From the NCBI GenBank assembly GCA_021772915.1, contig JAJFLB010000023.1:62001-126000 (forward strand): 64,000 bases of DNA. The letters are read 5' to 3'. The translations under genes were made by a program, and so were the position numbers. Every line of letters begins with the position of its first letter. The first letter of the stretch is position 1. This stretch comes from Gammaproteobacteria bacterium (GTDB lineage: Bacteria > Pseudomonadota > Gammaproteobacteria > Xanthomonadales > SZUA-36). Positions 11,718 through 34,635 of the stretch are shown piece after piece. The notes under the pieces were generated by a model that searched no databases, was not told the origin of the DNA, and saw nothing but the letters and a program-made list of their open reading frames with translations.

Positions 11718-11748
11718 TCTCTATTCCTTTTCACCTGGTGGTATCGGT

Positions 11749-18811: not shown

Positions 18812-18930
18812 TTCAGAAGTTTAGACGTAGGCCCGCGCTATTGGTTAGCCGGGCGGAAAAAAAAGATTTGAGACACGGTCTGGGTCGCTGTTGGCGTATT
18901 TTGTTGCTTGTAGTGCAGTACACTTTGCTC

Positions 18931-19821
18931 ATGTTAACAAATCAGCAGATTGGGGAGTTTATCGCTGAACACCGACTTCCTGACAGGTTCAGCGACCTGA
19001 TCCACAAATACTACTCACCACTTGCAGCCTGGGTGAAACGACAGCACAACCCAAATGAAACACTGTTTGTCGGAATCAGTGGCGCCCAGGGCACTGGCAA
19101 AACGACCCTTGCTGACTATTTATGTCTTGCGCTTGAAGCGAATGCCGGCTGGCAGGTGGCGGCTCTGTCCATGGACGATTTCTATTTGACCCGGTCGGAA
19201 CGCAATCAACTGGGTGAAAGCACCCACGCCCTGCTGGCATCGCGGGGCGTTCCTGGCACCCATGATATGCGGATGCTGGCGAACTGCATTGAACGGCTCG
19301 GGATGCTTGGCGCGGGAATGAGCATGCCTTTGCCTCGCTTTGACAAGGCGCAGGATGACCGCAGTAGCCCCGATAGCTGGCCCGAGGTAACCGGGCCGGT
19401 GGACGTGATCATTCTGGAGGGCTGGTGCGTCGGCAGCGCACCGCAGCCGGGCAATACACTGGTGCAACCCATCAATTTACTTGAGCACGAAAAGGATACC
19501 GATGGCGCTTGGCGCCGCTACGTTAATGACCAGCTCAGGGGGACCTACGCCAGTCTGTTTGCCCGACTGGACAAGCTGATATTTCTAAAGGCCCCAAATT
19601 ACGACAGCGTTTATCGTTGGCGATTTGAGCAGGAGAGAAAGCTTGCCGCGGTAAACTCTGACAAGGCTACAAACATCATGGACACGCAGCAACTGGAGCA
19701 ATTTATGCAGCATTTTGAGCGCCTGACCAGGGCAAATTTGGCCCGTTTGCCCGCCGTTGCCAATGTTGTCATAGCGTTAGATGACAATCACGATTGTATA
19801 CGTTGTAAATTCGCTGAGTGA
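18931..19821 (+). CDS. P-loop kinase of the glycerate 3-kinase/uridine kinase-like group
   Basis: The 296-residue protein has Walker A GAQGTGKTT (residues 51-59), ALSMDDFYLT after the second strand, a GVPGTHDM loop, and the VDVIILEGWCVG motif, all found in the bacterial relatives of plant D-glycerate 3-kinase. ATG 18931 is preferred because 30 upstream in-frame residues are unlike the family. The final ~36 residues (from HFERLTRANL) are repeated in a diverged form at 32410-32527, next to the convergent hemolysin-III gene. The tail of this gene may therefore have been replaced when the intervening island inserted. Confidence 0.85.
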   Translation: MLTNQQIGEFIAEHRLPDRFSDLIHKYYSPLAAWVKRQHNPNETLFVGISGAQGTGKTTLADYLCLALEANAGWQVAALSMDDFYLTRSERNQLGESTHALLASRGVPGTHDMRMLANCIERLGMLGAGMSMPLPRFDKAQDDRSSPDSWPEVTGPVDVIILEGWCVGSAPQPGNTLVQPINLLEHEKDTDGAWRRYVNDQLRGTYASLFARLDKLIFLKAPNYDSVYRWRFEQERKLAAVNSDKATNIMDTQQLEQFMQHFERLTRANLARLPAVANVVIALDDNHDCIRCKFAE

Positions 19822-19882
19822 GAATATCAGGCTTCCCCTGGCGTTATGTCAATCAGTTTGCGCTGACAAGATACGGTTCACT

Positions 19883-20206
19883 TTACCCAGAGTTAACCTG
19901 ACGCGCTTCCAAGGGGTTTTCGCACCCAATAGCCACCACCGTGCAAGGGTGACACCGGCCACAAGCTTGTTGGTCTGAGCGAATGAATCCAACCACTGCC
20001 GACTTGCTGTTCCCGATCTGGTAACGGCAGGGCCTTTTTCATCCCAAATGTAAGAATTGGCGTGAAAGACAGATGCATCCAGGCAGAATTCAGCACTGGC
20101 CGCTCAAATATGATCTTGTGTATGGCAGTCTGGCAGAAGACCTGATATGAAATGGCAGTTCACTACCCCAGGGTTTCTGGCTTTATAGCGTTTTTACAAC
20201 TTATAC
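19883..20206 (+). mobile_element. IS91-like element remnant, left copy (3' part only)
   Basis: Bases 19883-19975 encode LPRVNLTRFQGVFAPNSHHR and VTPA in frame, a recognisable C-terminal piece of the IS91-family transposase that is also present in the right-hand copy ([19 protein letters not shown] at ~31791). The following ~200 bases are the inverted terminal region: bases 20010-20206, read on the minus strand, align over about 200 bp with 30790-30990, ending in a 33-bp terminus at 20174-20206. The rest of the transposase is missing. The stretch from 19822 to the next gene at 20289 holds nothing else recognisable. Confidence 0.7.
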
Positions 20207-20288
20207 TCAAGGGATGTTCAATATCTGCGGTATGCAAGTAATATGGTGTTTGTCTTACCTATACTCGGTTTTGCAAACACTATTTTAT

Positions 20289-23200
20289 CTATTGCGCATC
20301 AGACATCGCACCCAGGTATTGATTCAGCGCATCAGTAGCTTCTATAGCCATGAATGTAGAGGGGTGGGTTAACTTTGCAATTTTTTCGACATTGGCCCTT
20401 AACCGTGATGCGTCCAACTCGATGTAGCCGCATTGTGCAAGGTTATTTTCGGCTGCATATTGTTGCCAGGTCTCATTTTCCCATTTGAATTCATCATTGG
20501 CTTGCAGCCAGCGGGCACCAAGCTCAGCGTGAGTGCTTGTACAATCGATGTGTAATAACTTGATGAGGAAGTCGGTTGTATGTCGCGCGCCCCACGTTGT
20601 TTTTGCGTTCCACAGCAACCCGTCTTTATATGCCGGCAAGTCGCCTTTTTTACTGTGAAAGTAGGCCGTTGAGAAACCGGATAGTTCAGTTGATTTCGAG
20701 CAGCTCAGGAAATCCAATTCCAGTGCAACTCTTTGTTCGACTGAATCGCTGTCGCCAATGATTCGGTTAAAAAGTTTCAATGCCTGAGTGTACGCACCGG
20801 CAGCTTTAGGCAAATTGCGTGATGAGCGTGCCAGATGGCCTCGTAATTGCCATAAACGCCATGTTTTGGGATGATTGGGAACCCCCCAGACCTGTTCCTG
20901 ACGTACAGCCAACACATCCAGTAATTGTCCGGCTTCTTGCAGCTTTCCCAATGAAAACCATGCTTCAGCTAGTGACAGCGATGTTTCAAACCATTTGGGT
21001 GTTTCACTGCGATAGGACTCCAGATACATTTCTGCCGCTTGCTGTAATGCCCGACTGGCTTGATCATACTTACCTTCATCAAGTAAATAATCGCCCAGCG
21101 CGTGCCAGCGGAAAGGCGTTGCAATGTGCAACCGCCCAAGCGTATCTGCTGAGCCTTGTGCCGCGCTGCGTTGTAGCTCAATAGCCCGTGTTGTTGAGCC
21201 CACTCTATGCTCCAGGCTGGCTGCGGCTTCCAGGGTTTTGAAGTAGGCAGGGTCTGTCTGTCGGCCCTGTAGCCGGTACAGGGTTAGTGATTGCGCCATA
21301 AGCTGCAGTGCACGGGGCCGGTCCCGTAGCTTGACCGGTTTGACCCACCAGTACGCCAGCAGAAATGCAAGTTCGGCCAACATTTCCGGCGACTGGGGGT
21401 GATTCACAAATGCGCTATCGGCGTAGTAATCGTAGGCTTTTTCCCAATAATAAGGTGCATAGATCCATTCCGGCATGACCAGACGGGCAGCGCGCCAATA
21501 AGCATTTGCAATTTCTTCATTGCTCGCACCACTGGCGATCAGATTACTGATGGCAATTTTCAGTAATTCGTCTTCACGTTTATCGGCTAAATCCAGATTG
21601 CGTTTGTCTCTGAGCTCAGCCAGTGCCCAGGCGTATTGGTACTTTTCCCTCTCCCCTTCCCGGGCCACGCTAAAGGCCTGGGTAAGAAGATCCTCGGCGC
21701 GCTCAAATTCACCCATTTGCAGGTACAAACGACCCGCGGCATGCAGCAATTGACCACGGTTAATGCTGTCTTCGGCGAGTTCCACCGGGATTCGGCGCAC
21801 ACCTTCGTCCAGCATCTGCCGTGCAGTGAGGGACTCAACATTGGTATTCGGGCTGGTGGTATTGAACATGCCAATAACAAAATTGGTGACGCGGTTGGAC
21901 AGACCGAGATTATGCTCCGCGGCCTCACGTTGTTGTGTGGCAACAAATGAAAAATAGGAAGAAACAATCGCCAATAGGGCAAGCATAACAACGGCCAGAC
22001 GTCTGATGCCAACCAGTCGTTGTGAACGTGCTTGTGAGCGCCTGATAAACTCGCTGATATCTTCATTCAGATCAGCCAGCAGGGTAACGGATCGGCCATC
22101 TGCCAATGCCTTTCCGGAGCGCAGAAGAAGATCGGAAGACTTATCGCCCCGCCGCCAGTTGTTATAGGCGACCTGGGTGCGTCGAAAGGCTGCCAGACGT
22201 TCAAGATTTTCTTCCGACCACTCACGTGCTTCACCCCATTGCTCAAGTAAGGTCTCATGAACCAGAGAATAATACCGACCACCGGTAACATGCTTGCCGC
22301 TGGTCAGTAAGCGCGCATCCACCAGTTTATGGGCGAGTTGCTCAACGTGTTCATTGCTCCTTATCTCACTGTCCAGGGCCGGTCGCCGGGTGACGCGGTA
22401 GTTTTCGAGATCAAACTGGGTGAGGTATCTCAACAGATCAGGCAGTGCCTTTCTCAGCGGTCGCTTCAGATCGTTCATCACTTCATCGGCATGCCTGGAA
22501 ATGGCACCGACAAGGCCACCCAGCTCATGGTAGCTTTTCCAGGTCAGTACCTCGTCATCTCGGGTCTCATACATACGATGCAACAGAAACTGCAGCAATG
22601 GTAATGCCTGACGCATATGGTTGGCACTGGAGATAATTTCACTTTTCAAAGAGCCGAGGGTATTGGAGGATTCAAAGCGAAATCCGGCCAATTTGGCAGG
22701 TCCCTGGAGAATTTCCGCCAGCTCAGATTGTGATGGCTTGCCAAGCGTAAATGTGCCGGAGCCCTGTCTCAGCCGCGCCATGGCCGGCCAGTCGTTCAAG
22801 ACGGGAATGAAGTCTTCACGTAGGGTCACGATTACATCCAGAAACCCTGAACGGGCAAGCAGGTGAACCATTTGCATGACCAATGCGGTATCTTCCAACG
22901 CCAGGGCTTCTTCGAACTGATCAATCAGCAGCACGGGTGTTGCGTTACTGGAGTGTTCCTGCTCAAGTGGTTGAGCGACGAGTCTGGCTATGATTTGTCC
23001 CAGTTTAGAATGTGGGTCTAACGCGGCAACTTCCGCAGGATTGTGTATGAGAATATCGGCGGTGCCCAGTTTGCGTTGCTTCATCAAGGCCGGTAACAAT
23101 CCGGCACGGGCAAAAGATGATTTACCCACACCGCTGGCACCGGTGATCAGCAAAAAGCCGCACTTGCGTTCGCGCTGCTCTGTCAGTGCTACGCTGGCTT

Positions 23201-23633
23201 CAGCAACGGCGCTTGAGCGGCCAAAAAAGATTGGACCGTCGTTGACCTGGAAACGACCAAGACTTCGGAATGGCGAACCACCTGTCCACACTTGTGTTGA
23301 ATCATCCCGCGACTCCGGCGTCACCTGCGCCGTACACAGCAGGCGATAACCCTTGCGGTGAATGGTTTCTATATATCTGGGCTGGTGTGCATCGTCGCCA
23401 AGTGCCTGGCGCAACTTGAGGATGACGCGTTTGAGCACCTCTTCATTGACGTACTGTCGTGGCCAGACAAGATCCAGTAATTCGTACTTCTCTACCGTCT
23501 GCCCAGGGTGCTCGACCAACACCTGCAACACGGCCAGCATCTTGGGTTGCAGGTGCACGACCTCTGCGCCCCTGCTGATGCAATGACGATCAGGTTCGAC
23601 ATACCAGTCATCCAGGTGAAACGCTTGTTTCAA
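20289..23633 (-). CDS. Winged-helix / STAND ATPase / TPR membrane regulator
   Basis: This 1114-residue protein joins an OmpR/CadC-type winged helix (residues 1-100, with EEVLKRVILKLRQALGDD and IETIHRKGYRLL) to a STAND-type NTPase (P-loop GASGVGKSSF at 165-174, Walker B VLLIDQFEE near 234-242), one transmembrane helix (about 545-565) and a long TPR-rich C-terminus that would face the periplasm. It resembles CadC-like one-component receptors with an added ATPase switch. The start is TTG at 23633, supported by GGGAAGG five to six bases upstream and the conserved wHTH beginning there. It is divergent from the WxxW gene at 23738 and likely controls the promoters that share the 20-bp motif described below. 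Confidence 0.9.
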   Translation of the reverse strand: MKQAFHLDDWYVEPDRHCISRGAEVVHLQPKMLAVLQVLVEHPGQTVEKYELLDLVWPRQYVNEEVLKRVILKLRQALGDDAHQPRYIETIHRKGYRLLCTAQVTPESRDDSTQVWTGGSPFRSLGRFQVNDGPIFFGRSSAVAEASVALTEQRERKCGFLLITGASGVGKSSFARAGLLPALMKQRKLGTADILIHNPAEVAALDPHSKLGQIIARLVAQPLEQEHSSNATPVLLIDQFEEALALEDTALVMQMVHLLARSGFLDVIVTLREDFIPVLNDWPAMARLRQGSGTFTLGKPSQSELAEILQGPAKLAGFRFESSNTLGSLKSEIISSANHMRQALPLLQFLLHRMYETRDDEVLTWKSYHELGGLVGAISRHADEVMNDLKRPLRKALPDLLRYLTQFDLENYRVTRRPALDSEIRSNEHVEQLAHKLVDARLLTSGKHVTGGRYYSLVHETLLEQWGEAREWSEENLERLAAFRRTQVAYNNWRRGDKSSDLLLRSGKALADGRSVTLLADLNEDISEFIRRSQARSQRLVGIRRLAVVMLALLAIVSSYFSFVATQQREAAEHNLGLSNRVTNFVIGMFNTTSPNTNVESLTARQMLDEGVRRIPVELAEDSINRGQLLHAAGRLYLQMGEFERAEDLLTQAFSVAREGEREKYQYAWALAELRDKRNLDLADKREDELLKIAISNLIASGASNEEIANAYWRAARLVMPEWIYAPYYWEKAYDYYADSAFVNHPQSPEMLAELAFLLAYWWVKPVKLRDRPRALQLMAQSLTLYRLQGRQTDPAYFKTLEAAASLEHRVGSTTRAIELQRSAAQGSADTLGRLHIATPFRWHALGDYLLDEGKYDQASRALQQAAEMYLESYRSETPKWFETSLSLAEAWFSLGKLQEAGQLLDVLAVRQEQVWGVPNHPKTWRLWQLRGHLARSSRNLPKAAGAYTQALKLFNRIIGDSDSVEQRVALELDFLSCSKSTELSGFSTAYFHSKKGDLPAYKDGLLWNAKTTWGARHTTDFLIKLLHIDCTSTHAELGARWLQANDEFKWENETWQQYAAENNLAQCGYIELDASRLRANVEKIAKLTHPSTFMAIEATDALNQYLGAMSDAQ

Positions 23634-23683
23634 GCTGCCTTCCCATTGCCAACTGTCAAGCAGTATATTAGCCGATTCATGTT

Positions 23684-23704
23684 TTTGGGGACTTTTTGAT
23701 CACG
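23684..23704 (+). promoter_or_regulatory. Shared island promoter motif, copy 1
   Basis: TTGGGGACTTTTTGATCACG lies in the 104-bp region between the divergent regulator and WxxW-protein genes, 33 bp before the latter's ATG. The same string with one change occurs at 24664-24684 and 28192-28212 before the other island transcription units. A site conserved in otherwise dissimilar promoters next to a DNA-binding regulator is a good operator candidate. Confidence 0.5.
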
Positions 23705-23737
23705 TTGATCGGTATTACTGCCTTAGAATAGCTACTC

Positions 23738-24529
23738 ATGAGGCGACCCAACAAGCCGGCCATAGCAATTTTTTTATTGCTGTTTGCAGGTAACCATGTC
23801 TTGGCGGCACAGTGTTGGCTGGGAGAGCGCTTTGGCACCAAACTACAGCGTTATCCCGCAACAGAAGGGTCTGACACAACAAATCGAGAGACCTGCAAGG
23901 CAACCTGCCAAGGCGACATCGGCACCGTGCTGCAGATTTGCAATCGACTGGGTGCCCCGTATGTGAACAACGTTGAGTTTGGGTGTTTTTTTAAATCAGA
24001 TGAAAATGCCGCGGAGTTACTGGCGGGCACCCCACCGGACTTTTATGGTTGCATGCAATTGTGCGAATGCCCAAAAGGTCAGTGGTACGAAGCTTTCAGA
24101 CGTCAATGCGTTGAGCCCACTGGTACGGCCGTGGCCAATATGCCCAACGGCGACAAGGGTGGTGGCTATTACGTCAAAGACGGGTACCTGTTCAAGGATG
24201 CCGGGCAAGCGACTTGCAGAATGTTGCCATCCGGCGAACCTACCGCCCGCACTACCGGATCAGAATCCACCGGACACTGGACGCCGTGGATGAATCGTGA
24301 TCAGCCGGGTGGCTACGGTGACGCTGAAGCCCTGGAAGCATTCATTAGAACGGGTAAGGTTTGTAGCCGACCGATTGACATCCAGTGCCGTACCAGGGCA
24401 GGAAAGGATTGGCTGGATGCGGGCCAGGTCTATACCTGTAACCGAAACGTTGGTGGATCGTGCTTAAACCATACCCAGGCCGAAGGGGAAAAATGTCTGG
24501 ACTATGAAGTGCGCTTTTTGTGTCCATAA
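23738..24529 (+). CDS. Secreted Cys-rich protein with C-terminal mucin-type WxxW domain
   Basis: The 263-residue protein has a signal peptide (MRRPNKPAIAIFLLLFAGNHVLAAQ), an N-terminal Cys-rich region with about ten cysteines (residues 26-124), and a C-terminal domain from residue 180: HWTPWMNRDQPGGYGDAEAL, then PIDIQCRTR and CLDYEVRFLC. This matches the Mucin-2 WxxW domain (WTxW, GDxExL, IxC, C.DYxVRFxC), best known from animal mucins and CILP but also found in bacterial secreted proteins. It is probably an adhesive or carbohydrate/matrix-contacting module; function is unproven. Its 3' end begins the long direct repeat whose second copy holds a decayed version. Confidence 0.85.
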   Translation: MRRPNKPAIAIFLLLFAGNHVLAAQCWLGERFGTKLQRYPATEGSDTTNRETCKATCQGDIGTVLQICNRLGAPYVNNVEFGCFFKSDENAAELLAGTPPDFYGCMQLCECPKGQWYEAFRRQCVEPTGTAVANMPNGDKGGGYYVKDGYLFKDAGQATCRMLPSGEPTARTTGSESTGHWTPWMNRDQPGGYGDAEALEAFIRTGKVCSRPIDIQCRTRAGKDWLDAGQVYTCNRNVGGSCLNHTQAEGEKCLDYEVRFLCP

Positions 24530-24663
24530 ACGATCTGTCCTCTCTTCGATTCAAGCTCATTACGTGTTCGTAAAAACTTCCCTTGAAATGAATTTCGTGC
24601 TTACGCTCTAACAATTGTCCATTATTTTTCCATATTAAACATAGAGATACATAAGTTAAGTAA

Positions 24664-24684
24664 TTTGGGGACTTTTCGATCACG
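24664..24684 (+). promoter_or_regulatory. Shared island promoter motif, copy 2
   Basis: TTGGGGACTTTTCGATCACG occurs 107 bp before the 67-codon ORF. It belongs to the duplicated segment, so it is not independent of the copy at 28192, but it is independent of the copy at 23684 because the surrounding sequences do not align. Confidence 0.5.
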
Positions 24685-24791
24685 ATTGTTTTTCGGCTAT
24701 GGGGATACTGGTGTGTACTGAAAGCGTTGCCGCGTAGACCAGCAATCAATTGATTCTATCTGGTGACCTTTATCTTTTAGGAGAAGTCGTG

Positions 24792-24995
24792 ATGAACACT
24801 AGGGCAACCAGTGGTCCGGCCAGCCTGAAGAACACGCTATTAGGAGTAGTGCTTACAACTTTACCCACGATGACAAGCGACTCAGCCTGGTCCGCCAACG
24901 CGATGCCGCAGCCAGGAACGCCTCTCTGGATTCTTGCAGACGCAGCCATTGGCAATACTAATCAGCATTTCAGTACAGACGGGGGCTTACTATGA
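24792..24995 (+). CDS. Possible 67-residue leader ORF, copy 1
   Basis: The ORF follows a TTTTAGGAGAAG ribosome-binding site and encodes MNTRATSGP...STDGGLL. Its stop overlaps the ATG of the next ORF (ATGA at 24992-24995), a translational-coupling arrangement kept in the second copy. In this copy the following ORF (MKQNSLNKSVNRP, 24992-25033) ends after 13 codons. Between copies about 14 of 67 residues differ, with about seven silent changes, close to the neutral ratio, so protein-level selection is not shown. It could be a leader or a chance ORF. Confidence 0.4.
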   Translation: MNTRATSGPASLKNTLLGVVLTTLPTMTSDSAWSANAMPQPGTPLWILADAAIGNTNQHFSTDGGLL

Positions 24996-25033
24996 AACAG
25001 AATTCCTTAAACAAATCGGTGAACAGACCTTAA
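24992..25033 (+). pseudogene. Truncated N-terminus of an FG-GAP-type gene
   Basis: Thirteen codons (MKQNSLNKSVNRP) match the start of the 648-residue protein at 28519 (MKKNSLNKSTIST) for nine positions and then stop. This marks the right edge of the direct repeat; the rest of the ancestral gene was lost or replaced by the WxxW gene that begins at 25105. Confidence 0.6.
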
Positions 25034-25104
25034 CAATTTTTGAAATATTACGAAATTTGTCGCATTGCAAAAGCATAAATAACTTTATCTTTGGGAGAGA
25101 GATT

Positions 25105-26838
25105 ATGAGTAAGAATACTAAATATTTTGGACTTTTATTTGTCTGTTTTACCGCCTTTTCTTTGGTTGCTAAGGCCCAAACAATAACTGGACGTTTTTCC
25201 GTTGACAATGGGTATCAACTTTGGATTGGTAATTCTTACGAAGTACAAACCCAGCTAGCAGCCCAATGGAATACAAGGGCGAAACAAATAAAAACGGGGG
25301 TGTCAGTCACCTTCAACGCAATACCAGATTGCCACATTTACATCGTTGCTTGGTCTGATGACAAAGATTTTCAAGGATTGGTTGGGAGTTTTTCAGGGGC
25401 AACCACTATTAAGACAGGCGACAGTCAATGGCGCGTTTGGCCGACCGGAAATAACCTTAATGGGGTCAGTAATGCAACCACGACTCCAAGCATAGGCCAA
25501 GTAAATTCGTGGCTTATCGGTGCCCCACCAAACCCAAGCACGTGGCCAATTCCTTTTGCCGGGCCAATAGTAAATGGTCCTATTCCCAATAATATTTATG
25601 GAACCGTTCTGGGCATAGACCCTAACGCTAAATGGGTTTGGCATGACAGCAAAAAAGATTCCCGGGCCACATGGCCGTTAACCACGGGGACTTACTCTCC
25701 TCATGGCGTTCCGTTTCTAGGTTTTAATCACGACGAGGTTCTTATTTTTCGGGTTCCTTGTCCAGCACCTGTTCAACCACCTGACCCTTGTTGCCCACCC
25801 TGGAACGAGCATCGGTTAGGGGACATGTTGGAATATCTGGGTTCCGGTGGAATTGCTGATCCTTATACACTCAACTTCGCACCCACTAACGCGTTCGACA
25901 CCCAGATGCAGGCGTATATTGACTATCTAAATGTTGCTTCTAACTTTGCGATCTCGTCGATTCACATCACATTTAGCCTATATGACCATGGGACAGGTAC
26001 TAGTCCGTCAGGGGCGAGCCTTGCGTATATTGGTCCGCCTGGTTCACAAGATCGCTATGTGCAGTGGACGGCTGGCCCACCAGGCGGTTATCAAATGTCT
26101 CCATTTTTTACCATGCCCTCCCACTCACTGCAGGTGGGAAATTGGTACCGTGTGGGTACAGGCATCTGGTTGAATGACAATAACTCATTCTTCCCAGACT
26201 CATGTGCAGTGAATGAGGTGTTTTTCCGTATCCAGGTGTTGGGACTTGTAGCAGGTGGCGACGGCGCGGCCGTTCTGCAGATACGGATGCCGGACGGGCG
26301 GATCGTTGAAAGACCAATTGAAATTCGACAGGAAGGCAGGCCACAGGTAGTTAAGCAACCGGCAGGCAGGCCACAGGTAATCAAGCAGCAGGATGGCAAA
26401 CAACAGGATGGTGATTCTTCCACGACAAAATATACGAGTTCGAAACGAAGGTGTTGTCGTCCGGGTTGTGATTGGAACTGTGGTGACAAGATGCTCGAAG
26501 TTGATAAGGAGCATGTCGAAAACGTGAGAAGTCAACCGCCAGAAGGTACGCAACCAGCAGGCAGGCCACATGTAGTCGAGCAAAATGGTTCGTGGACCCC
26601 TTGGTATAACCGCGACAATCCCAGTGGCAAGGGTGATCATGAATTGTTAAGCGACTTCATTGCTGCTGGCCAGGCTAGGCCCAACCCTGTGGAGATAGAG
26701 TGCCAAACCACGTCCGGTGTTGGCTGGCGAAAGGCAGGGCAGGTTTACACCTGCAACACCCAGACCGGTGGTGTTTGTGTCAACAGCCAACAGCGCAAAG
26801 GCAAGTGCCAAGATTACAAGGTGAGGTTCCGATACTAG
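25105..26838 (+). CDS. Large secreted protein with C-terminal WxxW domain
   Basis: The 577-residue protein has a signal peptide (MSKNTKYFGLLFVCFTAFSLVAKAQ), which fixes the start at 25105 behind GGGAGAGAG. It then has two unrecognised beta-rich regions (about 26-230 and 240-400), a Pro/Gln/Lys linker with three copies of GRP(Q/H)V(V/I)(K/E)Q, a Cys cluster (KRRCCRPGCDWNCGD) and a C-terminal WxxW domain from residue 496 (SWTPWYNRDNPSGKGDHELL, IECQTTSG, CQDYKVRFRY). The final Cys of the domain is Tyr here. The layout suggests a surface or extracellular protein whose WxxW tail is an interchangeable module. Confidence 0.8.
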   Translation: MSKNTKYFGLLFVCFTAFSLVAKAQTITGRFSVDNGYQLWIGNSYEVQTQLAAQWNTRAKQIKTGVSVTFNAIPDCHIYIVAWSDDKDFQGLVGSFSGATTIKTGDSQWRVWPTGNNLNGVSNATTTPSIGQVNSWLIGAPPNPSTWPIPFAGPIVNGPIPNNIYGTVLGIDPNAKWVWHDSKKDSRATWPLTTGTYSPHGVPFLGFNHDEVLIFRVPCPAPVQPPDPCCPPWNEHRLGDMLEYLGSGGIADPYTLNFAPTNAFDTQMQAYIDYLNVASNFAISSIHITFSLYDHGTGTSPSGASLAYIGPPGSQDRYVQWTAGPPGGYQMSPFFTMPSHSLQVGNWYRVGTGIWLNDNNSFFPDSCAVNEVFFRIQVLGLVAGGDGAAVLQIRMPDGRIVERPIEIRQEGRPQVVKQPAGRPQVIKQQDGKQQDGDSSTTKYTSSKRRCCRPGCDWNCGDKMLEVDKEHVENVRSQPPEGTQPAGRPHVVEQNGSWTPWYNRDNPSGKGDHELLSDFIAAGQARPNPVEIECQTTSGVGWRKAGQVYTCNTQTGGVCVNSQQRKGKCQDYKVRFRY

Positions 26839-26841
26839 TCG

Positions 26842-26912
26842 CATGATCAGCCGAATGGCCACGGAGGTGCTGAATCCCTGACAGGCTTTTTTATGCCGGG
26901 TGAGCTTTGTAA
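26842..26912 (+). pseudogene. WxxW-domain remnant
   Basis: Immediately after the previous stop, one frame reads HDQPNGHGGAESLTGFF and then MPGELC, which aligns with DQPGGYGDAEALEAFIRTGKVC in the WxxW domain of the 23738 gene. The start of the domain and its Cys-rich end are absent. It is a third, decayed WxxW copy. Confidence 0.55.
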
Positions 26913-26967
26913 CAGTACAATCAACTTGCTCTTGCCGTGTGGGAGCAAACACAGAGGAGCTATAAAA

Positions 26968-27582
26968 ATGAATAGCAAAACAATCCATCGCAATGTCTGG
27001 GTGCTGGCACTGAGCCTGTGTCTCGGCGTCATTTTCACCCACGCAACAGCATATGCTGCTGAGAAAAGAAAAGCTAGGTTTATGCCCAAGCCCAAGCCCG
27101 TTTGCACAAGCACCGTAGAAGTGACAGGGTTGCACTATCCGAACCAGTCCTGTGCACAGTCCCAAGCCAACTTTCAGGCCGGCATGCTCACCAATTTTCA
27201 ATTCACCTCAAAATGCCCAGCACCGAGCGCACTTACATCGGTCTTCAACGTTTCCTGTCAGAATGCGCCGACCCAGGGGTTTAATACTGGGTCAGTGTAT
27301 AAGGGGACCGCTTGTTGCACTGCGCCGCAGGTAGTCATCTCCAATCTACCGATGCAAGGTGGTAATGAGAAGACCCCCTGTCCAGGGCTGGGAGTCATCT
27401 ACACGCGGGCGGACGCGCCTTTGGTACCCTATCTCAACATCATGCTTGCCAGCCTTGATCAGCAATGTGCGACAAAGGGACCAGGGTTCAAGTTGCAATC
27501 GATCAAGTTTCTGACGTGCTGCGCAGATCCGCGCGGCCCCGGCTTCGGGCCGAACGCTACTGCGGACCTGACTTGCGGATGA
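26968..27582 (+). CDS. Secreted Cys-rich hypothetical protein
   Basis: The 204-residue protein starts behind GAGGAGC and has a signal peptide (MNSKTIHRNVWVLALSLCLGVIFTHATAYAA). The mature chain has about 13 cysteines, including C-C pairs (TACCTAP, LTCCADP), so it is probably disulfide-rich and extracellular. No family is recognised. It is between two WxxW remnants and shares the Cys-rich secreted character of the island proteins, but has no WxxW domain. Confidence 0.7.
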   Translation: MNSKTIHRNVWVLALSLCLGVIFTHATAYAAEKRKARFMPKPKPVCTSTVEVTGLHYPNQSCAQSQANFQAGMLTNFQFTSKCPAPSALTSVFNVSCQNAPTQGFNTGSVYKGTACCTAPQVVISNLPMQGGNEKTPCPGLGVIYTRADAPLVPYLNIMLASLDQQCATKGPGFKLQSIKFLTCCADPRGPGFGPNATADLTCG

Positions 27583-27883
27583 AGAGCCAAAAGAGCTAGC
27601 AAAAATGGATCCCAGGAGAATTGATGCTACACATACACAGCCCACTGACGGTGATGCTCAAAGCAAAACCCTCTACGCTCGACTTTTTTCGTCGATTTAA
27701 CTTGGTTTGGTATTTAACGAAATCGTCCAGATAAGCTTTACATATGAGGTTATTTTAAAACCAATTGAGCTTGTTTTAGAACAAAAGTCTGGGAACCCAT
27801 CGCTCAAGAGACATGGGTGGCTTTGCTTTTTGTTTGAGTAGTGGATGTCCTCGTCCTTATTCATCCGCACGCCGAATGCGCTG
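27583..27883. other. Non-coding island spacer
   Basis: This AT-rich stretch has no supported gene. It contains a hairpin at 27784-27819 (AAAGTCTGGGAACCCAT ... ATGGGTG) that resembles one at 30993-31038. A short TCGAC/GTCGA inverted repeat around T residues near 27678-27696 is too weak to call a terminator. Confidence 0.5.
27784..27819. repeat. ACCCAT/ATGGGTG hairpin, copy 1
   Basis: AAAGTCTGGGAACCCAT is followed after about 14 bases by ATGGGTG, so the second half can fold back. A similar AAAGTCTGGACACCCAT ... ATGGGTG arrangement is at 30993-31038 inside the right IS91-like copy. Both are probably traces of mobile-element sequence. Confidence 0.4.
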
Positions 27884-28058
27884 TTCAATGGACGTGTAGT
27901 TAGAGTCCTCCGGTGTCGTACCAGGACAGGAAAGGATTGGCTGAATGCGGGTCAGGTCTATACCCCGCAACAGAAACGTTGGTGGATCGTGTATGAACTC
28001 TACCCAGCCCGAGGGGGGGAGATGTCTGGACTATGAAGTGCGCTTTTTGTGTCCATAA
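27884..28058 (+). pseudogene. Decayed 3' end of a WxxW-domain gene
   Basis: The sequence CGTACCAGGACAGGAAAGGA onward closely matches the end of the 23738 gene, including GKDWLNAGQVYT and the final DYEVRFLCP codons and TAA, but frameshifts after QVYT and an upstream deletion break the frame. It is part of the second copy of the 630-bp direct repeat. Confidence 0.75.
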
Positions 28059-28191
28059 ACGATCTGCCTTCTCTTCGATTTAAGCTCATCACCTGTTTTC
28101 AAGAACTTCCTTTCAAATGAAATTTGTGCCTGTGTTCCAATAATTACCAACTTTTATTCATATTAAACATATAGATATATCGGTTTAAAAG

Positions 28192-28212
28192 CTTGGGGAC
28201 TTTTCGATCACG
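28192..28212 (+). promoter_or_regulatory. Shared island promoter motif, copy 3
   Basis: TTGGGGACTTTTCGATCACG at 28193-28212 lies 106 bp before the second 67-codon ORF, at nearly the same distance as in copy 2. It would drive the coupled small ORF and FG-GAP gene. Confidence 0.5.
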
Positions 28213-28318
28213 ATTGTTTTTCAGCCATGGGGATACTGGTGTGCACTGAGAGCGTTGCTGCATAGACCAGCAATCATTTGATTCTATCCGATGACTTTTA
28301 TTTTTAGGAGAAGTCTTG

Positions 28319-28522
28319 ATGAACACCAGGGCAACCAGTGGCCCGGCCAAGCTGAAGAACACGCTATCAGGAGTAGTGCTTACAACTTTACCCATGATGT
28401 CAAGCGACTCAGCTTGGTCCGGCTACGCGATACCGCAGCTAGGAACACCTGTCTGGATTTCTGCAGACGCAGGCATTGGTACTACTAATCAATATTTCAG
28501 CACTGACGGGGGCTTACAATGA
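28319..28522 (+). CDS. Possible 67-residue leader ORF, copy 2
   Basis: This is the homolog of 24792-24995 (MNTRATSGP...STDGGLQ) with the same TTTTTAGGAGAAG ribosome site. Its stop overlaps the ATG of the FG-GAP gene (ATGA), so if translated it would couple to that gene. The substitution pattern between the copies does not prove selection on the protein. Confidence 0.4.
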   Translation: MNTRATSGPAKLKNTLSGVVLTTLPMMSSDSAWSGYAIPQLGTPVWISADAGIGTTNQYFSTDGGLQ

Positions 28523-30465
28523 AAAAGAATTCCTTAAACAAATCGACTATCAGCACATCAAAGTTAATCAGTCAAATTGTCACACGTATGACGCTTATTA
28601 TCAGCCTGACATACGTTCTCATGCCTGCTGTTGGGCTGGCGCAAACGCTATCCTTCGACGCAGCCACATTCTACCAAATGGGACAGCGTATGGAGACTAA
28701 TATAAGGATTGGCGACTTCAATGGCGATCTTGTGCCAGATATTGCTTCTGCGGATTCATATGTTGGTCGCATTTTTATTCGCTTAGGCAATGGTGATGGC
28801 ACGTTTGGCTCAGCCACGAGCTTCGCTGCATTTGGAGTAATACGCGCTCTGGCAATTGGCGATCTTGATGGTGATGAAAAGCTTGACCTCGTCACTGCAA
28901 ACAATATTGGCAACCGTGTTTATGTTCTTTTAGGCAATGGTGATGGTACGTTTGGCTCTGCCACGAGCTTTATTGTTGGCTATAGACCAAACGATGTGGA
29001 GATTGGTGACATAAACGGTGACTTCATAGCAGATATAGTTTCAGTAAATTACGGCTCAACCGATATATCAATTCTTATTGGCGTCGGTGATGGCACGTTT
29101 GGTGCCCAGACGACGATAGCCTTAAGTTATCAGCCATACAGAGTTGAAATTGCTGACCTAGATGATGATGGCAATGGGGACCTGGTCGTTTCAAGTTATT
29201 ACAGTTCCACGAACCAGATTTTCTTGGGTAGCGGTGGTGGTGCGTTTGGTAGTCCCACAACCTTTGTTACCGGGACAAATCCAGGTGATGTGGTGATCGC
29301 AAATCTCAATAATGACTCTATACCGGATATTGCTCTGCCAAATGTAGGAAGCGACGATGCCTCGATCCTTATAGGCGTGGGCGACGGCACGTTTGGTGCC
29401 CCCACGAATATCAATTTTGGAATGCTCTCGAGTCTGGAGTTTGGCGATTTAGATTGTGATGGCAAGCTCGATATGGTGGCGACCGGCGGCGGAGAGGTCA
29501 ACGTACTCTTGGGCTTCGGCGACGGCACGTTTGGTGCCTCCACGAATTTCGTGCAGACAGGCGGGGTAAGCGCGATTAGTGATTTCGATGGTGATGGCAA
29601 GCTCGACCTGGCTTTGGCGGAAAACTGGTTTTTTCCTAATCCTAGAAATATCGCCGGCGTGTGGATTCTTTTGAATGCTACTGACACACCGCCAAAGTGT
29701 AACTTCGACCACTTCCTTTCCTACGATGTCAAGACGACAAAGAAGACGCCGAAGTTTGAGGAACGGGAGATATTCCTTAAAGACCAGTTCCTGGAAGGAT
29801 TATTCCGGGTGGAGAAACCCGAGGAACTGCTCAATCCGGCGGACAAGAACGGTGAGGGGATCAGCGATTTCGATTCTCATTTATTGTCCTACAAAGTCAA
29901 AGAGCGGGGAGACCTGGGTCATTTCAGGCTGGCTGGCATCCTGGTTGAGAACCAGTTCGGATCACTCATAGTGGATGTGGAAGAACCCGACCGCCTGCTC
30001 GTACCGGCATCCAAGAGTCTGTCTGAACTGCTGTCCCCACCGGACCCGAGTGCTCACAACGTGGATCATTTCCTGTGCTACAAGATTCAGGACGATGACG
30101 ATGACGATGACCATGGTCACGATTCCAAGGATTCAAGTGAATCAAGGGACGAGGATTCAGAAGAGAAAGACAACCATCCCACGATCCAGGTCCTGGTGCA
30201 GGATCAGTTTGACAATGCGCCCAGGTTGTTTGACGTCAAACAGCCGAAGCGGTTGTGCAACCCGGTTGACAAAAATGGTGAAGGGATCAAGAACCCGGAT
30301 AACCACCTGCTTTGCTACAAGGTCAAGCCGGCAAAAGGCGAACGTAAGCATGAGAAGATCAAAGGGATATTTGTCAATGACCCGTTCGGGCCGAATCAGG
30401 TGGATACCAAGAAGGAAAAGGAGCTCTGCGTACCGTCGACGAAAACCCTTCCTCCACTGGGCTGA
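28519..30465 (+). CDS. Secreted FG-GAP/VCBS beta-propeller protein
   Basis: The 648-residue protein has a signal peptide ending near Ala41 (VGLAQ), seven FG-GAP/VCBS repeats (about residues 60-385, each with D.DGD or D.NGD calcium loops and GDGTFG), and three C-terminal modules of ~85 residues with the pattern HFLcYKvK ... DQFG ... P..LC.P..K. A long Asp/Glu/Ser/His linker (about 525-560) separates the second and third modules. The propeller suggests Ca2+-dependent ligand binding outside the cell. It has no WxxW domain but shares the promoter, leader ORF and repeat with the WxxW units, so it is likely part of the same regulon. Confidence 0.85.
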   Translation: MKKNSLNKSTISTSKLISQIVTRMTLIISLTYVLMPAVGLAQTLSFDAATFYQMGQRMETNIRIGDFNGDLVPDIASADSYVGRIFIRLGNGDGTFGSATSFAAFGVIRALAIGDLDGDEKLDLVTANNIGNRVYVLLGNGDGTFGSATSFIVGYRPNDVEIGDINGDFIADIVSVNYGSTDISILIGVGDGTFGAQTTIALSYQPYRVEIADLDDDGNGDLVVSSYYSSTNQIFLGSGGGAFGSPTTFVTGTNPGDVVIANLNNDSIPDIALPNVGSDDASILIGVGDGTFGAPTNINFGMLSSLEFGDLDCDGKLDMVATGGGEVNVLLGFGDGTFGASTNFVQTGGVSAISDFDGDGKLDLALAENWFFPNPRNIAGVWILLNATDTPPKCNFDHFLSYDVKTTKKTPKFEEREIFLKDQFLEGLFRVEKPEELLNPADKNGEGISDFDSHLLSYKVKERGDLGHFRLAGILVENQFGSLIVDVEEPDRLLVPASKSLSELLSPPDPSAHNVDHFLCYKIQDDDDDDDHGHDSKDSSESRDEDSEEKDNHPTIQVLVQDQFDNAPRLFDVKQPKRLCNPVDKNGEGIKNPDNHLLCYKVKPAKGERKHEKIKGIFVNDPFGPNQVDTKKEKELCVPSTKTLPPLG

Positions 30466-30470
30466 ATCCC

Positions 30471-30531
30471 GTAGGACTGATGAGCTTGCTCATCGGGAAC
30501 AATTCCCGACCAGCTTGCTGGTCGGTCCTAC
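30471..30531. repeat. Cloverleaf-like palindromic element
   Basis: A GTAGGAC/GTCCTAC outer stem encloses three nested hairpins: GATGAGCTTGCTCATC, GGGAA/TTCCC, and GACCAGCTTGCTGGTC. The element starts 5 bp after the FG-GAP stop codon. Its GTAGGA edge resembles REP/BIME-type repeats of gammaproteobacteria; it could also act as a transcription terminator or mRNA-stabilising structure. Confidence 0.75.
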
Positions 30532-30992
30532 ATCACCAAAGAATTTTTTGACTCTGACTCCTTAATTCCGGTGACTCAGGTTGAATCGGTTTTTTGGATT
30601 CATTTCCCCAGTTCTTTTTGCACCTCCAGCAAGGCCTGTGTAATTTCTTCTTGTCGTCCTGCATCGGCCAGGTAGGCGTGAAGTGTTGACAGGGGAGACT
30701 ATGGGCTAGGTATTGAGCTGCGAAAGTAGTAAGCAACGAGGTGTTAATGTTCTTAAGCGAAGCAGAAGACAAAAACCGTACAAACGCGCGTATAAGTAGT
30801 TTAAACGCTATATTGCCAGAAAACTCAAAGTACCGAACGGCTATTCGTATCAGGCTTTTAGCCAGACTGCCACGTAATTTGAGCCTATTTGAGCAGCCAA
30901 GACTGAATTCTAACCGGATTCATATGCGTTTTACCCCAATTCTCACGCTTGGGGCGATAGAAAACTTACCGTTCCTTTCTCGGGATCAGTGA

Positions 30993-31038
30993 GAAAGTCT
31001 GGACACCCATATTATCTGCACCTAAAGTCATGGGTGTT
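30993..31038. repeat. ACCCAT/ATGGGTG hairpin, copy 2
   Basis: AAAGTCTGGACACCCAT is followed by ATGGGTGTTC, so GGACACCCAT and ATGGGTGTTC can pair across a ~19-base loop. It resembles the hairpin at 27784-27819 and lies inside the IS91-like element. Confidence 0.4.
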
Positions 31039-31133
31039 CAATCCTCATCCCTAATCCTTATCCGACTTCGACTGACATGTGATTGGTCGGGCGCTGTGGC
31101 AAAAGCTGCGGAGTGTTGTAGGATAGGGATTAG

Positions 31134-32145
31134 ATGTGGGTGTCTAGGCTTTTTTGGCTTTTTCGGAAATTCAATCTGTTTCTCGATGGTGTCTACATTG
31201 ACACTAAACATGGATCTTCACGATTTCATTGGGTCAAAGCCCCGAGCAGCGCTGAACTTACCCGATTAACCCACACCATTGCCCACCGGGTTGCCTGCTA
31301 CCTGGAGCACCAGGGCTTATTGGTGCGCGATGGTGAGAGTAGCTATCTCACCTCAGAAGGTGCATACATCGATCATGAACCACCTGTTGGGAAGTTGACG
31401 TGAAGGGATTCACTAATGCCGCGAGGGCAGGGATGCACAGGAGCGGTCCATTACCTACCGAATTGCCATGGGACCAAAGCAAGGCCGCAAGGTGTTCACG
31501 CTGCAAACCCTACCCAACCTTGAATCAGGTAACCCGTTTTCAGGCTCAGTGGGTGAAGCTGCCGGGTTTTCGCTGCATGCGGGTGTAGCCACCAATGCCA
31601 ATGAGCGGGAGAAGCTGGAACGCTTGTGCCGGTATATTACGAGACCAGCCGTATCCACAAAACGTCTATCAATGACCCGAAATGGCAGAGTGCGCTACGA
31701 GTTGAAAACGCCCTGGCGCAATGGCACCACCCATGTCATATTTGAACCGTTGGATTTTATCTCCAGGCTGGTTTCGCTTGTTCCCAAGCCACGCATTAAC
31801 CTTACACGCTTTCATGGTGTTTTCGCGTCGAACAGTCAGTATTGGATGCTGGTAACTCCTGCAAAGCGAGGTAGGGGAAAAACCGTCATTGCCCTAAATA
31901 ACCAAACACATGCCGAGAAACGGGCTTCGATGACATGGGCAAAGCGTTTAAAGCGGGTGTTCAATATCGACATTGAGACTTGTAGCGAATGCGGTGGTGA
32001 TGTCAAGATTATTGCCAGCATTGAAGACCCAGCAGTTATTCAGAAGATACTCGCCCACCTGGACGGCAGTGCAAATTCTGCGGAAACAGAACTGTTACCG
32101 GGTTGCCGGTCCCCGCCGAGTCTGCCAGCGGGATTGTTCGCTTGA
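31134..32145 (+). pseudogene. IS91-family transposase, frameshifted and truncated
   Basis: Two frames together encode most of an IS91-type transposase: the 31134-31403 part reads FLDGVYIDTKHGSSRFHW, then SAELTRLTHTIAHRV and EHQGLLVRDGESSYL; after an interruption and a frame change, 31450-32145 continues with [74 protein letters not shown] and [11 protein letters not shown]. The N-terminal zinc-binding and first HUH regions are missing, so the gene is inactive. Confidence 0.88.
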
Positions 32146-32409
32146 AGAAACTTAGCTATAGCGCTTTGCCACTCTCAATTTGGTGGCGGTATGGCTTTTA
32201 TCGTCTGGGCTTCGAAATTGGCGTGAAATAGAACGTAAATCGAGTAAAATCCAGTCTTCACTAATCAACTGATGCGACAATTCGCAGCGAACCAAGCAAA
32301 ATGTTGACGTAAAGTGAAGTTCAATATATGCAGGTTTCTGGCAATATAGCTTTAGTACCTCCTATACCCTCGCCTTCTGCTGTTGTAAAACATCTCGATA
32401 TAATCGACC

Positions 32410-32527
32410 ACATCACTTTGAACGCCTGACCAGAGCAAACCTTGCCTCATTGCCCACAACTGCCGATGTTGTTCTGGATCTGGATGACAAACACGGAATA
32501 CATGCCGTACATTTGCCCAACGACTAG
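32410..32527 (+). pseudogene. Second 3' end of the P-loop kinase gene
   Basis: One frame reads HFERLTRANLASLPTTADVV and then DLDDKH...LPND followed by TAG, which aligns with the end of the kinase at 19821 (HFERLTRANLARLPAVANVV, DDNH) at roughly 60% protein identity. It ends 43 bp from the stop codon of the convergent hemolysin-III gene, the spacing expected for an original gene junction. It is best explained as the original kinase tail, displaced by the island. Bases 32146-32409 before it belong to the IS91-like right end. Confidence 0.75.
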
Positions 32528-32570: not shown

Positions 32571-33218
32571 TTACCCTCTGGGCAAAACATGGCTGTACAC
32601 CGCGACAAAGTGACAAAAACTGCCAAGCAATACAAACAGGTGAAAAAGCGCGTGGTTAAACCGGATTTTTCCCATGCTGTACATGATTGCACCCAGCGTG
32701 TAGGCCACACCACCTGCAAATAACCAAAACATTCCGTCTGAAGAAAGGCTGTTCATCAGTGGGTTGATGGCAAAAACAATGATCCATCCCATGAACACGT
32801 ACAGCACTGTCGAAAGCAGGTCGTATTTGCCGGTGTAGAATAATTTCAGTGTGACCCCGGCGACCGCCATTGACCAGGTCACCACAAATATTGTCCACCC
32901 GGTCGGACCATGCAGTGTTACCAGTGCAAACGGTGTGTAGGTTCCGGCAATCAATGCATAAATGGTCGCGTGGTCCATGATGCGCAAACGGCTTCTCAGC
33001 GCGGGCTCTTTCGCGCCATGATAAAAAGTTGACGCAGTATAAAGAGCGATCAAGCTAACACCAAAAAAGCTGACACTGACAATGTGCCAAATGGTGCCAA
33101 ACTGGATTGCACGTGAAAGCATCGCCACCAGTGCAACACCACTCAGTACCAGGCCGATGGCGTGGGAGGTGATATTGAATTTCTCTTCACCGGATGAGTA
33201 GTGCTTTAACCCGTCCAT
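32571..33218 (-). CDS. Hemolysin III / PAQR-family membrane protein
   Basis: The 215-residue protein has seven transmembrane helices and PAQR motifs: KFNITSHAIGLVLSGVALVA, ALYTASTFYHGAKEP, RIMDHATIYALIAGTYTPF and NHALFHLFVLLGSFCHF, with the Asp and His residues that bind zinc in this family. The ATG at 33218 follows AGGGAGGGA; 27 upstream in-frame residues overlap the helicase gene region and are not needed. It is the third gene of the yaiI-dbpA unit. Activity as a true hemolysin is unproven for most members. Confidence 0.9.
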   Translation of the reverse strand: MDGLKHYSSGEEKFNITSHAIGLVLSGVALVAMLSRAIQFGTIWHIVSVSFFGVSLIALYTASTFYHGAKEPALRSRLRIMDHATIYALIAGTYTPFALVTLHGPTGWTIFVVTWSMAVAGVTLKLFYTGKYDLLSTVLYVFMGWIIVFAINPLMNSLSSDGMFWLFAGGVAYTLGAIMYSMGKIRFNHALFHLFVLLGSFCHFVAVYSHVLPRG

Positions 33219-33246
33219 GGCTGGTCCCTCCCTTTGTCTATAGCTT

Positions 33247-34635
33247 TCACGACTGGCTGAGCTTTCGGACCCGAATGGCACGTCCTTTGACTCTTCCATT
33301 ACTTAGGTAGCTGAGCGCCTGGTGTAGTGCATTACGCTCAATGGCCACGAAGCTGGTCATCTCGAAAATGTCTATTTTTCCGACCTGAGAACTGGCAAGA
33401 CCAGCATCTCCGGTCAGGGCGCCCAGAATGTCCCCGGGTCGAAGTTTGTTTTTTCGTCCCGCATCAAGCTGGATGGTAGCCATGGGTGCGCGCAAACTGA
33501 ACTCTGAATCACGCTCCAGGGAGGCATAAACATCACAGATGCAGGGCTTATTCATGAACTGCTCTATGGCATTCACACGGACTTGCTCAGACTCGGTGAA
33601 AATACTGAGTGCCTGGCCTCTCTCCCCGGCACGGCCCGTGCGGCCAATGCGATGGACGTAAATTTCCGGATCACGTGGTAACTCGTAATTAATTACCGCC
33701 GCTATTGCCTTGATATCCAGACCACGCGCGGCGACATCAGTCGCGACCAACACCGAACAGCTGTTATTTCCAAACTGCACCAACACCTGGTCGCGCTCAC
33801 GCTGCTCGAGGTCACCGTGGATTGCCAGTGCCTCAATCTGGTGGCCACGCAACAAACGCGCTACCTCGTCACATTGCTTTTTGGTATGGCAAAACACCAA
33901 GGTTGATGCGGGTCGGTAATGTTCAAACAGAGCCAGCAAGGTGTTATTGCGCTCGTGCTTTTTGACCTCGTAAAACACTTGCTCGATCACACCGCTCTGG
34001 TGCTCGGTGTCTACCGTAACCGTTTCCGGGTTACGCAAAACTGAGCGGCACATACGCTTGATCGCATTGGGATACGTAGCAGAAAACAGCAGGGTTTGAC
34101 GCTTTTTTGGAGTCTGCGCAATGATTTCGGTCATCACATCAAAAAAACCCATGTCCAGCATCCGGTCGGCTTCATCCAGTACCAGTGTATTCAATCCATT
34201 GAGCTTCAAAGTCTCTCTACGCAAATGATCCTGAATGCGTCCCGGGGTACCCACTGCAATATGGGCTCCGTGCTCAAGCGAGCCTCTCTGCGGTCCAAAG
34301 GGCTTGCCACCGCAGAGCAAAATCAACTTGATATTGGCGACACTGCGCGCCAGTCTGCGTAGCTCTTTGCCCACCTGGTTAGCCAGTTCCCGGGTGGGAC
34401 ACAACACCAAAGCCTGCACCCCATAAAAGCGCGGATTGATTTTCTCCAGCAAACCGATACCAAAAGCGGCCGTTTTGCCGCTGCCGGTCTTGGCACGGGC
34501 GATCAGGTCTTTGCCACTCAAAATTATGGGCAGGCTCTGCGCCTGGATGGGTGTCATTTGCTTGTAACCAAGCGACAACAGGTTAGCTTTCTGTGCGCTG
34601 GATATAGGTAGGACTGAAAAGCTGTCAGCGGTCAT
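33247..34635 (-). CDS. dbpA: ATP-dependent RNA helicase DbpA
   Basis: The 462-residue protein has all DEAD-box motifs: Q motif with TPIQAQSLP, Walker A ARAKTGSGKTAAF, PTRELANQV, GTPGRIQDH, VLDEADRMLDMGF, SAT, and HRIGRTGRAG. Its C-terminal domain (KIDIFEMTSFVAIERNALHQA ... GRAIRVRKL) is the RNA-recognition fold that targets DbpA to hairpin 92 of 23S rRNA. It therefore acts in late 50S ribosome assembly. It starts one base after the yaiI stop and is probably co-transcribed with it. Confidence 0.95.
   Translation of the reverse strand: MTADSFSVLPISSAQKANLLSLGYKQMTPIQAQSLPIILSGKDLIARAKTGSGKTAAFGIGLLEKINPRFYGVQALVLCPTRELANQVGKELRRLARSVANIKLILLCGGKPFGPQRGSLEHGAHIAVGTPGRIQDHLRRETLKLNGLNTLVLDEADRMLDMGFFDVMTEIIAQTPKKRQTLLFSATYPNAIKRMCRSVLRNPETVTVDTEHQSGVIEQVFYEVKKHERNNTLLALFEHYRPASTLVFCHTKKQCDEVARLLRGHQIEALAIHGDLEQRERDQVLVQFGNNSCSVLVATDVAARGLDIKAIAAVINYELPRDPEIYVHRIGRTGRAGERGQALSIFTESEQVRVNAIEQFMNKPCICDVYASLERDSEFSLRAPMATIQLDAGRKNKLRPGDILGALTGDAGLASSQVGKIDIFEMTSFVAIERNALHQALSYLSNGRVKGRAIRVRKLSQS

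Follow-up and report, generated by a model that had tools for sequence, protein, structure and literature searches.

Exported-looking CysD-type proteins beside a predicted membrane-held STAND regulator in a gammaproteobacterial genome

What joins a large regulator gene to the genes for several cysteine-rich proteins beside it, and did the set arrive as a mobile unit? The question is raised by a window of 64,000 nucleotides from a Gammaproteobacteria bacterium of the Xanthomonadales (GenBank assembly GCA_021772915.1, contig JAJFLB010000023.1, positions 62,001–126,000 of the forward strand; C16:62001-126000 in our numbering), which belongs to a 4.68-Mb genome of 71 contigs that is 98% complete. 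Five intact open reading frames (ORFs; 204–1114 aa) lie between a kinase gene (18841–19821, + strand) and a haemolysin-III-type gene (32571–33299, − strand). W1, W2, C3 and FG are all on the + strand; REG is on the − strand, divergent from W1 (Table 1). We think that they probably form a locally regulated locus of three transcription units which encodes exported CysD-type proteins under the control of REG. An initial annotation had proposed a regulated system for surface or extracellular interaction, and the divergent regulator, a motif unique to the genome, the exported-looking Cys-rich products and a CysD-type domain are all in keeping with this.

REG and the motif that it may bind

The wHTH-STAND-TPR membrane regulator of the initial annotation is confirmed: Pfam matches REG to Trans_reg_C (E 1.4e-17), nSTAND1 (E 5.2e-74) and TPRs, and hydropathy gives a single hydrophobic helix, residues 540–558, with a basic stretch before it. 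The Walker A (GASGVGKSS) and Walker B (LLIDQFEE) motifs, together with the nSTAND1 profile, place the protein among the STAND NTPases. The start codon is TTG, with GGGAAGG upstream. REG shares with ToxR/CadC-like regulators an N-terminal OmpR-type winged helix, one predicted transmembrane (TM) helix and a C-terminal part beyond it, but differs from them in carrying a whole nSTAND1 NTPase between winged helix and TM helix, and TPRs beyond. Its winged helix matches the HilA/EilA and CadC models with scores far under their cut-offs. We infer that REG is a ToxR/CadC-like membrane-held regulator with a STAND module and the predicted topology. Transmembrane regulators are described as widespread (PMC10269533); a literature search on STAND terms gave, among the matches listed, no transmembrane transcription regulator with a STAND module.

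In REG, as in each of the seven homologues aligned, the STAND module is followed by a hydrophobic helix; three of the homologues also have a weaker, earlier hydrophobic peak. Six of these seven proteins, from the same order, align from residue 5 of REG (in the winged helix) through nSTAND1, with 27–35% identity over the aligned parts, and therefore possess the winged helix; one of them (L178) was checked with Pfam. The alignment of the seventh, L179, begins at REG residue 106, without the winged helix. Relatives of the STAND part (L179:3793-7284, L184 and L183, the last kinase-like by eye) carry other N-termini to which no winged helix aligns, and for this reason the STAND chassis seems to be joined to different heads across relatives. 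Some match to REG, mostly to the winged helix only, is present in 60 of 61 relatives. Neighbourhoods of nine longer REG relatives, inspected by eye, show no recurrent partner gene, and no WxxW gene was noticed beside the nSTAND1 winged-helix homologues of the same order.

The sequence TTTGGGGACTTTTNGATCACG occurs three times in the locus, always on the + strand, the third copy with one mismatch. Its 18-nucleotide core, GGGGACTTTTNGATCACG, has three matches in the 4.68-Mb genome at up to two mismatches, all of them here; the reversed control gave none and shuffles of the window a mean of 0.01. One site is in the gap between REG and W1 and one is upstream of each of two leader ORFs, so that the motif precedes all three predicted transcription units: W1, leader A-W2-C3 and leader B-FG. 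The longest exact word common to the REG/W1 gap and the leader upstream sequence is 13, the maximum in 2000 mononucleotide shuffles being 12.

In the mechanism that we propose, REG would be held in the inner membrane with its STAND NTPase between the DNA-binding domain and the membrane helix, and would bind GGGGACTTTTNGATCACG, switching on, rather than repressing, (i) W1, (ii) leader A-W2-C3 and (iii) leader B-FG. Sensing of a signal by a periplasmic TPR part, with nucleotide-driven STAND assembly, would gate the switch. With a STAND NTPase built into a membrane-held regulator, one may ask how assembly of the NTPase would control the binding of DNA at the membrane.

STAND NTPases with repeat sensors also serve in phage defence, and REG might belong to an Avs-like module, with the exported proteins as bystanders. 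REG does have weak PADLOC matches (mads_8, E 1.7e-4; mads_3, 2.4e-4; a TPR model, 8.2e-4). It has, however, a DNA-binding domain and a TM helix, with neither a toxic effector domain in Pfam nor a strong PADLOC match; W1, W2, C3 and FG have no PADLOC match, and the three motif copies stand upstream of exported-protein genes. We give a defence module hardly any weight.

Both leader ORFs have 67 codons, a good ribosome site and a TGA that overlaps an ATG. For leader B this ATG is the start of FG, and translational coupling through the ATGA is likely; for leader A it begins a 13-codon vestige. The leaders lie in two direct repeats of about 637 bp, 81–91% identical in parts, which run from the 3' end of W1 to the first codons of FG and bracket W2-C3. 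We suggest that W2-C3 entered or was duplicated by recombination that left these repeats. Both the shared motif and the shared leader initially annotated exist, but two of the units have them through one duplication and W1 has no leader.

Might the motif instead be a 5' untranslated region or a recombination element of a cassette array? It ends about 33 nucleotides before the W1 start and could be transcribed, and two of its copies lie within the duplicated segment. The island has no Rfam match at the gathering threshold, however, and a copy sits between divergent REG and W1, where a regulator site would be expected. We regard such an element as doubtful and retain control by REG as our preferred reading.

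Table 1. Features of the locus, in window coordinates
Feature	Position	Strand	Description
REG	20289..23633	-	Trans_reg_C, nSTAND1, one TM helix (540-558), TPR; predicted one-component regulator anchored in the membrane
Candidate operator copy 1 (TTTGGGGACTTTTNGATCACG)	23684..23704	+	Inside the REG/W1 divergent gap 23634-23737 (104 bp)
W1	23738..24529	+	Exported-looking; 263 aa; 16 Cys; C-terminal WxxW (CysD) domain, residues 181-262
Direct repeat A, ~637 bp	24381..25018	+	W1 3' end, intergenic sequence, motif, leader ORF, first codons of downstream gene
Candidate operator copy 2	24664..24684	+	Upstream of leader ORF A
Leader ORF A, 67 aa	24792..24995	+	AGGAGAAG ribosome site; stop overlaps ATG (ATGA)
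Vestigial 13-codon ORF	24992..25033	+	Initial codons match those of FG
W2	25105..26838	+	Exported-looking; 577 aa; N-terminal parts D1 and D2; C-terminal WxxW domain with 4 Cys
C3	26968..27582	+	Exported-looking; 204 aa; 12 Cys
Direct repeat B (second copy of A)	27909..28545	+	Begins with ~150 bp copied, frame-shifted, from the W1 3' end ('third WxxW')
Candidate operator copy 3	28192..28212	+	Upstream of leader ORF B
Leader ORF B, 67 aa	28319..28522	+	TGA overlaps FG ATG (ATGA)
FG	28519..30465	+	Exported-looking; 648 aa; FG-GAP_3 repeats and DUF7450 repeats
Left IS91-family remnant	19886..20215	+	26 transposase residues (19886-19963) and a 3'-end stretch
Second IS91-type 3' end	30790..30953	-	Inverted relative to that of the left remnant
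Right IS91-family remnant	31134..32372	+	Transposase broken into two frames
Relic 3' end of kinase gene	32411..32527	+	Resembles end of intact kinase 18841-19821

CysD-type domains of the exported-looking proteins

W1, W2, C3 and FG each begin with a hydrophobic stretch resembling a signal peptide (from hydropathy only) and contain 16, 14, 12 and 6 Cys residues, respectively, which bears out the several exported Cys-rich proteins of the initial annotation. They would be exported and stabilized by disulfides. C3 has no match in Pfam, NCBIfam or PADLOC. The annotation had also proposed shared C-terminal modules. These are real in W1 and W2, which end in a WxxW domain, but Pfam finds no WxxW domain in FG, and the third WxxW is a copy of the W1 3' end, frame-shifted, within direct repeat B.

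The C-terminal domains of W1 (77.7 bits, E 1.2e-21) and W2 (65.6 bits, E 6.6e-18) match PF13330 (Mucin2_WxxW) above the curated cut-off of 22.4 bits. A sequence search of solved structures returns the CysD domains of MUC5AC, MUC5B and MUC2; W1 alone reaches MUC5AC with E 2.2e-9, and the two-row profile gives CysD matches with E 3.7e-12 and 1.5e-10. A structure model of mature W1, built on 36 sequences, is confident over the WxxW domain only (block predicted local distance difference test, pLDDT, 88–98; the rest of W1 poor). There it resembles MUC5B (template-modelling score 0.72 by target length, E 1.3e-5) and MUC5AC CysD7 (0.65 by target length, E 6.5e-5), and the search with this domain returned nothing else with E <1. 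A CysD fold is thus predicted for the WxxW domain, an assignment made from the W1 model only. The prediction for the N-terminal part of W2 was uninformative (mean pLDDT 31).

We aligned 36 bacterial and archaeal WxxW domains: 33 of 34 that were kept (the animal-like L078 being omitted), a second L070 domain and the two from the window. With positions numbered from W1 residue 25, Cys 218 and 229 are present in all 36. Cys 185 and 238 are both present in 32 domains and both absent from four, none having one alone; for Cys 193 and 210 the numbers with both, one and neither are 23, three and ten, and the three with a single Cys have another at 216. The six Cys of the W1 domain therefore make three covarying pairs, the predicted disulfides 185-238, 193-210 and 218-229, and the four of the W2 domain two pairs, the one missing being exactly 185/238. 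The CysD domain of mucins binds calcium and contains five disulfides (PMC11912381). W1 and W2 share with the CysD domains of MUC2, MUC5AC and MUC5B the profile match and the WxxW motif, and the W1 model shares the fold; they differ in having three and two Cys pairs against five disulfides. Unlike the mucins, W1 and W2 have no VWD domain in Pfam, and each ends with a single WxxW domain. Because they have six and four Cys, we class the bacterial domains, on their sequences, as leaner CysD relatives and not as mucin CysD proper. The N-terminal part of W1 (23738–24290) has a sub-threshold match to TIL (18.4 bits, cut-off 24.5), a Cys-rich domain that also occurs in mucins.

The closest relatives that we saw are bacterial, W2 being 65% identical over 80 aa to an Archangium protein. 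In a tree of the domains, from which animal sequences were left out, W2 groups with domains from Pseudomonadota metagenome-assembled genomes (MAGs; support 84/81) and W1 has no settled placement. The tree gives no support to W1 and W2 as recent sister duplicates. An animal origin of the two was also rejected, on the bacterial closest relatives and the grouping of W2 in that tree.

The CysD-type ends of W1 and W2 would most likely serve as modules for interaction outside the cell or for a matrix. The CysD domain has been studied as part of animal mucus, and the papers listed in our literature search included none about a prokaryotic WxxW/CysD domain. In the present locus the domain belongs to bacterial proteins that look exported and seem to be under dedicated control; a bacterial CysD domain that is small and soluble would be convenient for testing what the fold binds. 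One could go further and suppose a bacterial counterpart of mucus or matrix, in which exported CysD modules cross-link a self-made extracellular layer while the transmembrane STAND switch in the periplasm senses the state of this layer and acts on dedicated operators found nowhere else in the genome. We hold this to be decidedly unlikely; if true, the CysD fold would be an old prokaryotic matrix module, later reused by animal mucins.

Distribution of WxxW genes and conservation of the array

PF13330 was found in one of 398 genomes of the order and in one of 398 of a phylum sample, on each occasion in the source genome only (the samples overlap and both include it). The source genome has three matches, none outside this locus; the copy of the W1 3' end accounts for one of them. 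In genome contigs more widely, a DNA pattern for the domain detected 45 stretches, 35 of which encode a W1/W2-like protein (E 1e-4 or better); the count of the family is a lower bound, as the pattern is strict. We read 48 pattern matches and skipped 14 in which a C-terminal regular expression was unmet; some of these are genuine but unusual and six (L060, L065, L068, L071, L093 and L097) look chance-like by inspection. The genomes for a search with the family model (28) and for one with the N-terminal parts of W2 (25) were drawn from those behind the 45 stretches. All 28 have PF13330. WxxW homologues are spread over Myxococcota, Acidobacteriota, Cellvibrionaceae and further Pseudomonadota; several archaeal lineages have them too, with records among the 35. 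The domain is C-terminal, with 15 or fewer residues after it, in 23 of 37 matches with a closed 3' end. Scans with the two-row alignment found no WxxW in genome contigs or viral contigs; the DNA pattern gave none in viral contigs, and a protein search with W1 none in plasmids and phages.

Relatives of the N-terminal parts of W2 are present in six of the 25 WxxW genomes and, within the order, in three of 398 genomes besides the source, one (E 3.5e-5) with two stop codons; the two order relatives that were inspected have other gene contexts.

To view neighbours, 20 regions of 6–20 kb were fetched, of which 17, from 16 of the 28 genomes, hold WxxW genes; the set omits the two WxxW-richest genomes, G796 and G810. 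One partly similar arrangement, L156 (Alphaproteobacteria bacterium OFTM99), has on the + strand a GerE regulator, an FG-GAP gene, a W2-like gene with LamG and two WxxW genes. It shares with our locus adjacent FG-GAP, W2-D1-like and WxxW genes and an upstream regulator, and differs in that the regulator is of LuxR type (GerE) and that the W2-like protein contains LamG. Among the direct repeats listed for L156 there is no repeated motif before each gene, and its array region has no match to IS91 transposase. Since L156 keeps FG-GAP, W2-type and WxxW genes adjacent, some of these genes, though not the complete unit, may have travelled or been selected together.

Several results weigh against the locus that we propose. 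Co-occurrence of regulator and WxxW genes had been set beforehand as a test, and no relative of REG (E 1e-4) is found in any of the 20 regions, the 17 with WxxW genes included. FG-GAP genes are neighbours of WxxW genes in two of 16 other regions, a set without L158: in L156 they were recognized by repeat count and Pfam and in L162 by similarity to FG, each test missing one of the two. Two of the three motif copies stem from one duplication, so there are only two independent contexts, the W1 copy lying outside the duplication. Selection on the leader peptide as a protein is not clear (proportions of nonsynonymous and synonymous differences, pN and pS, 0.106 and 0.161), and neither consensus promoter-like sites (15 against 13.5 +/- 4.1) nor terminator-like sites (16 against 13.5 +/- 3.9) are more frequent than in shuffles.

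A rival reading is a decaying or neutral collection, acquired long ago, in which REG controls only itself or distant genes and the motif has outlived a duplication by chance. The frame-shifted WxxW copy, the vestigial 13-codon start, the broken IS91 pieces, the kinase relic nearby and a leader pN/pS that is not low all point this way. Against it stand the intact state of the five ORFs (204–1114 aa), the Walker motifs of REG, the paired Cys of W1 and W2, and the motif of the REG/W1 gap outside the duplication. We consider decay unlikely.

Some observations concern WxxW proteins elsewhere. Two small alphaproteobacterial MAGs (L078:2737-3708 and L079:1-504), of 0.9 and 0.8 Mb and one of them from yak omasum, encode WxxW domains (E 1.9e-26 and 1.1e-30) that score higher than the others tested with the Pfam model and look animal-CysD-like by eye; a host-derived gene, mimicry or contamination are possible origins. 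The family is expanded in the Cellvibrionaceae genome G810 (18 matches; L064/L083) and the Teredinibacter genome G796 (nine; L077), both belonging to polysaccharide-degrading bacteria. A Pacearchaeota (archaeal) protein (L063:2910-5759) joins WxxW to an APP_N heparin-binding-type domain (E 1.1e-4).

IS91 debris and the surroundings

The initial annotation had described a composite island, flanked by IS91 copies in the same orientation, that spreads as a unit. Pieces of Y2_Tnp (IS91-family transposase) do flank the locus on both sides in + orientation, and a composite unit would explain the block by its capture between outer copies and spread through rolling-circle transposition. WxxW is absent from every other sampled genome of the order and phylum, which makes a horizontal arrival of the locus at some stage probable and would suit this, and the kinase relic beside the right piece shows that rearrangement took place. 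The left piece, however, retains only 26 transposase residues, 85% identical to those of a longer genomic copy, and the right is broken into two frames, of 75 residues at 49% and 232 at 77% identity; these are not the near-identical bounding copies of a composite transposon. The 3'-end stretches 20043–20206 and 30790–30953 are about 73% identical and inverted, fragments are scattered through the genome (14 Y2_Tnp domain matches), and the part-conserved L156 array has no transposase match. Nor does the composition stand out. A comparison of GC with the flanks had been suggested as a check; the GC content is 0.499 in the island and 0.52 in the flanks. In tetranucleotide distance (0.138) the island is within the range of 24 overlapping stretches of its own length taken from this genome, nine of which are further off, and recent import was rejected on this distance. 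With the pieces diverged and broken, one end inverted and the composition ordinary, a composite transposon is not supported and we rate it as very unlikely; spread as a unit is not supported either, no relative of REG lying in the 17 WxxW regions read. The IS91 pieces are diverged, old-looking debris, later or older than the array, and are probably not what moves it. An old horizontal arrival by other means is possible.

The boundaries first given to the island, 19822–32527, also take in the kinase relic. This remnant of a second kinase copy (32411–32527) matches the 3' end of the intact kinase over 85 nucleotides at 73%, with differences that keep the reading frame, and on our reading of the alignments its tail is nearer to the kinase tail of a congener than the present kinase tail is. 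It suggests a former tandem copy or a foreign segment. The kinase is present in eight of 21 genomes searched, the source included, and is at most 43% identical within the genus. Among five kinase neighbourhoods compared, synteny was seen only in G004, the congener just mentioned, and for the left flank only: three genes like those at 10333–11720 of the window are some 2 kb away from its kinase. The 14 kb compared in G004 held no match to a right-flank gene, and hence no empty site could be read.

Just beyond the locus, 35168–37534 encodes a large protein that looks secreted and matches choice-of-anchor Q weakly, below the threshold.

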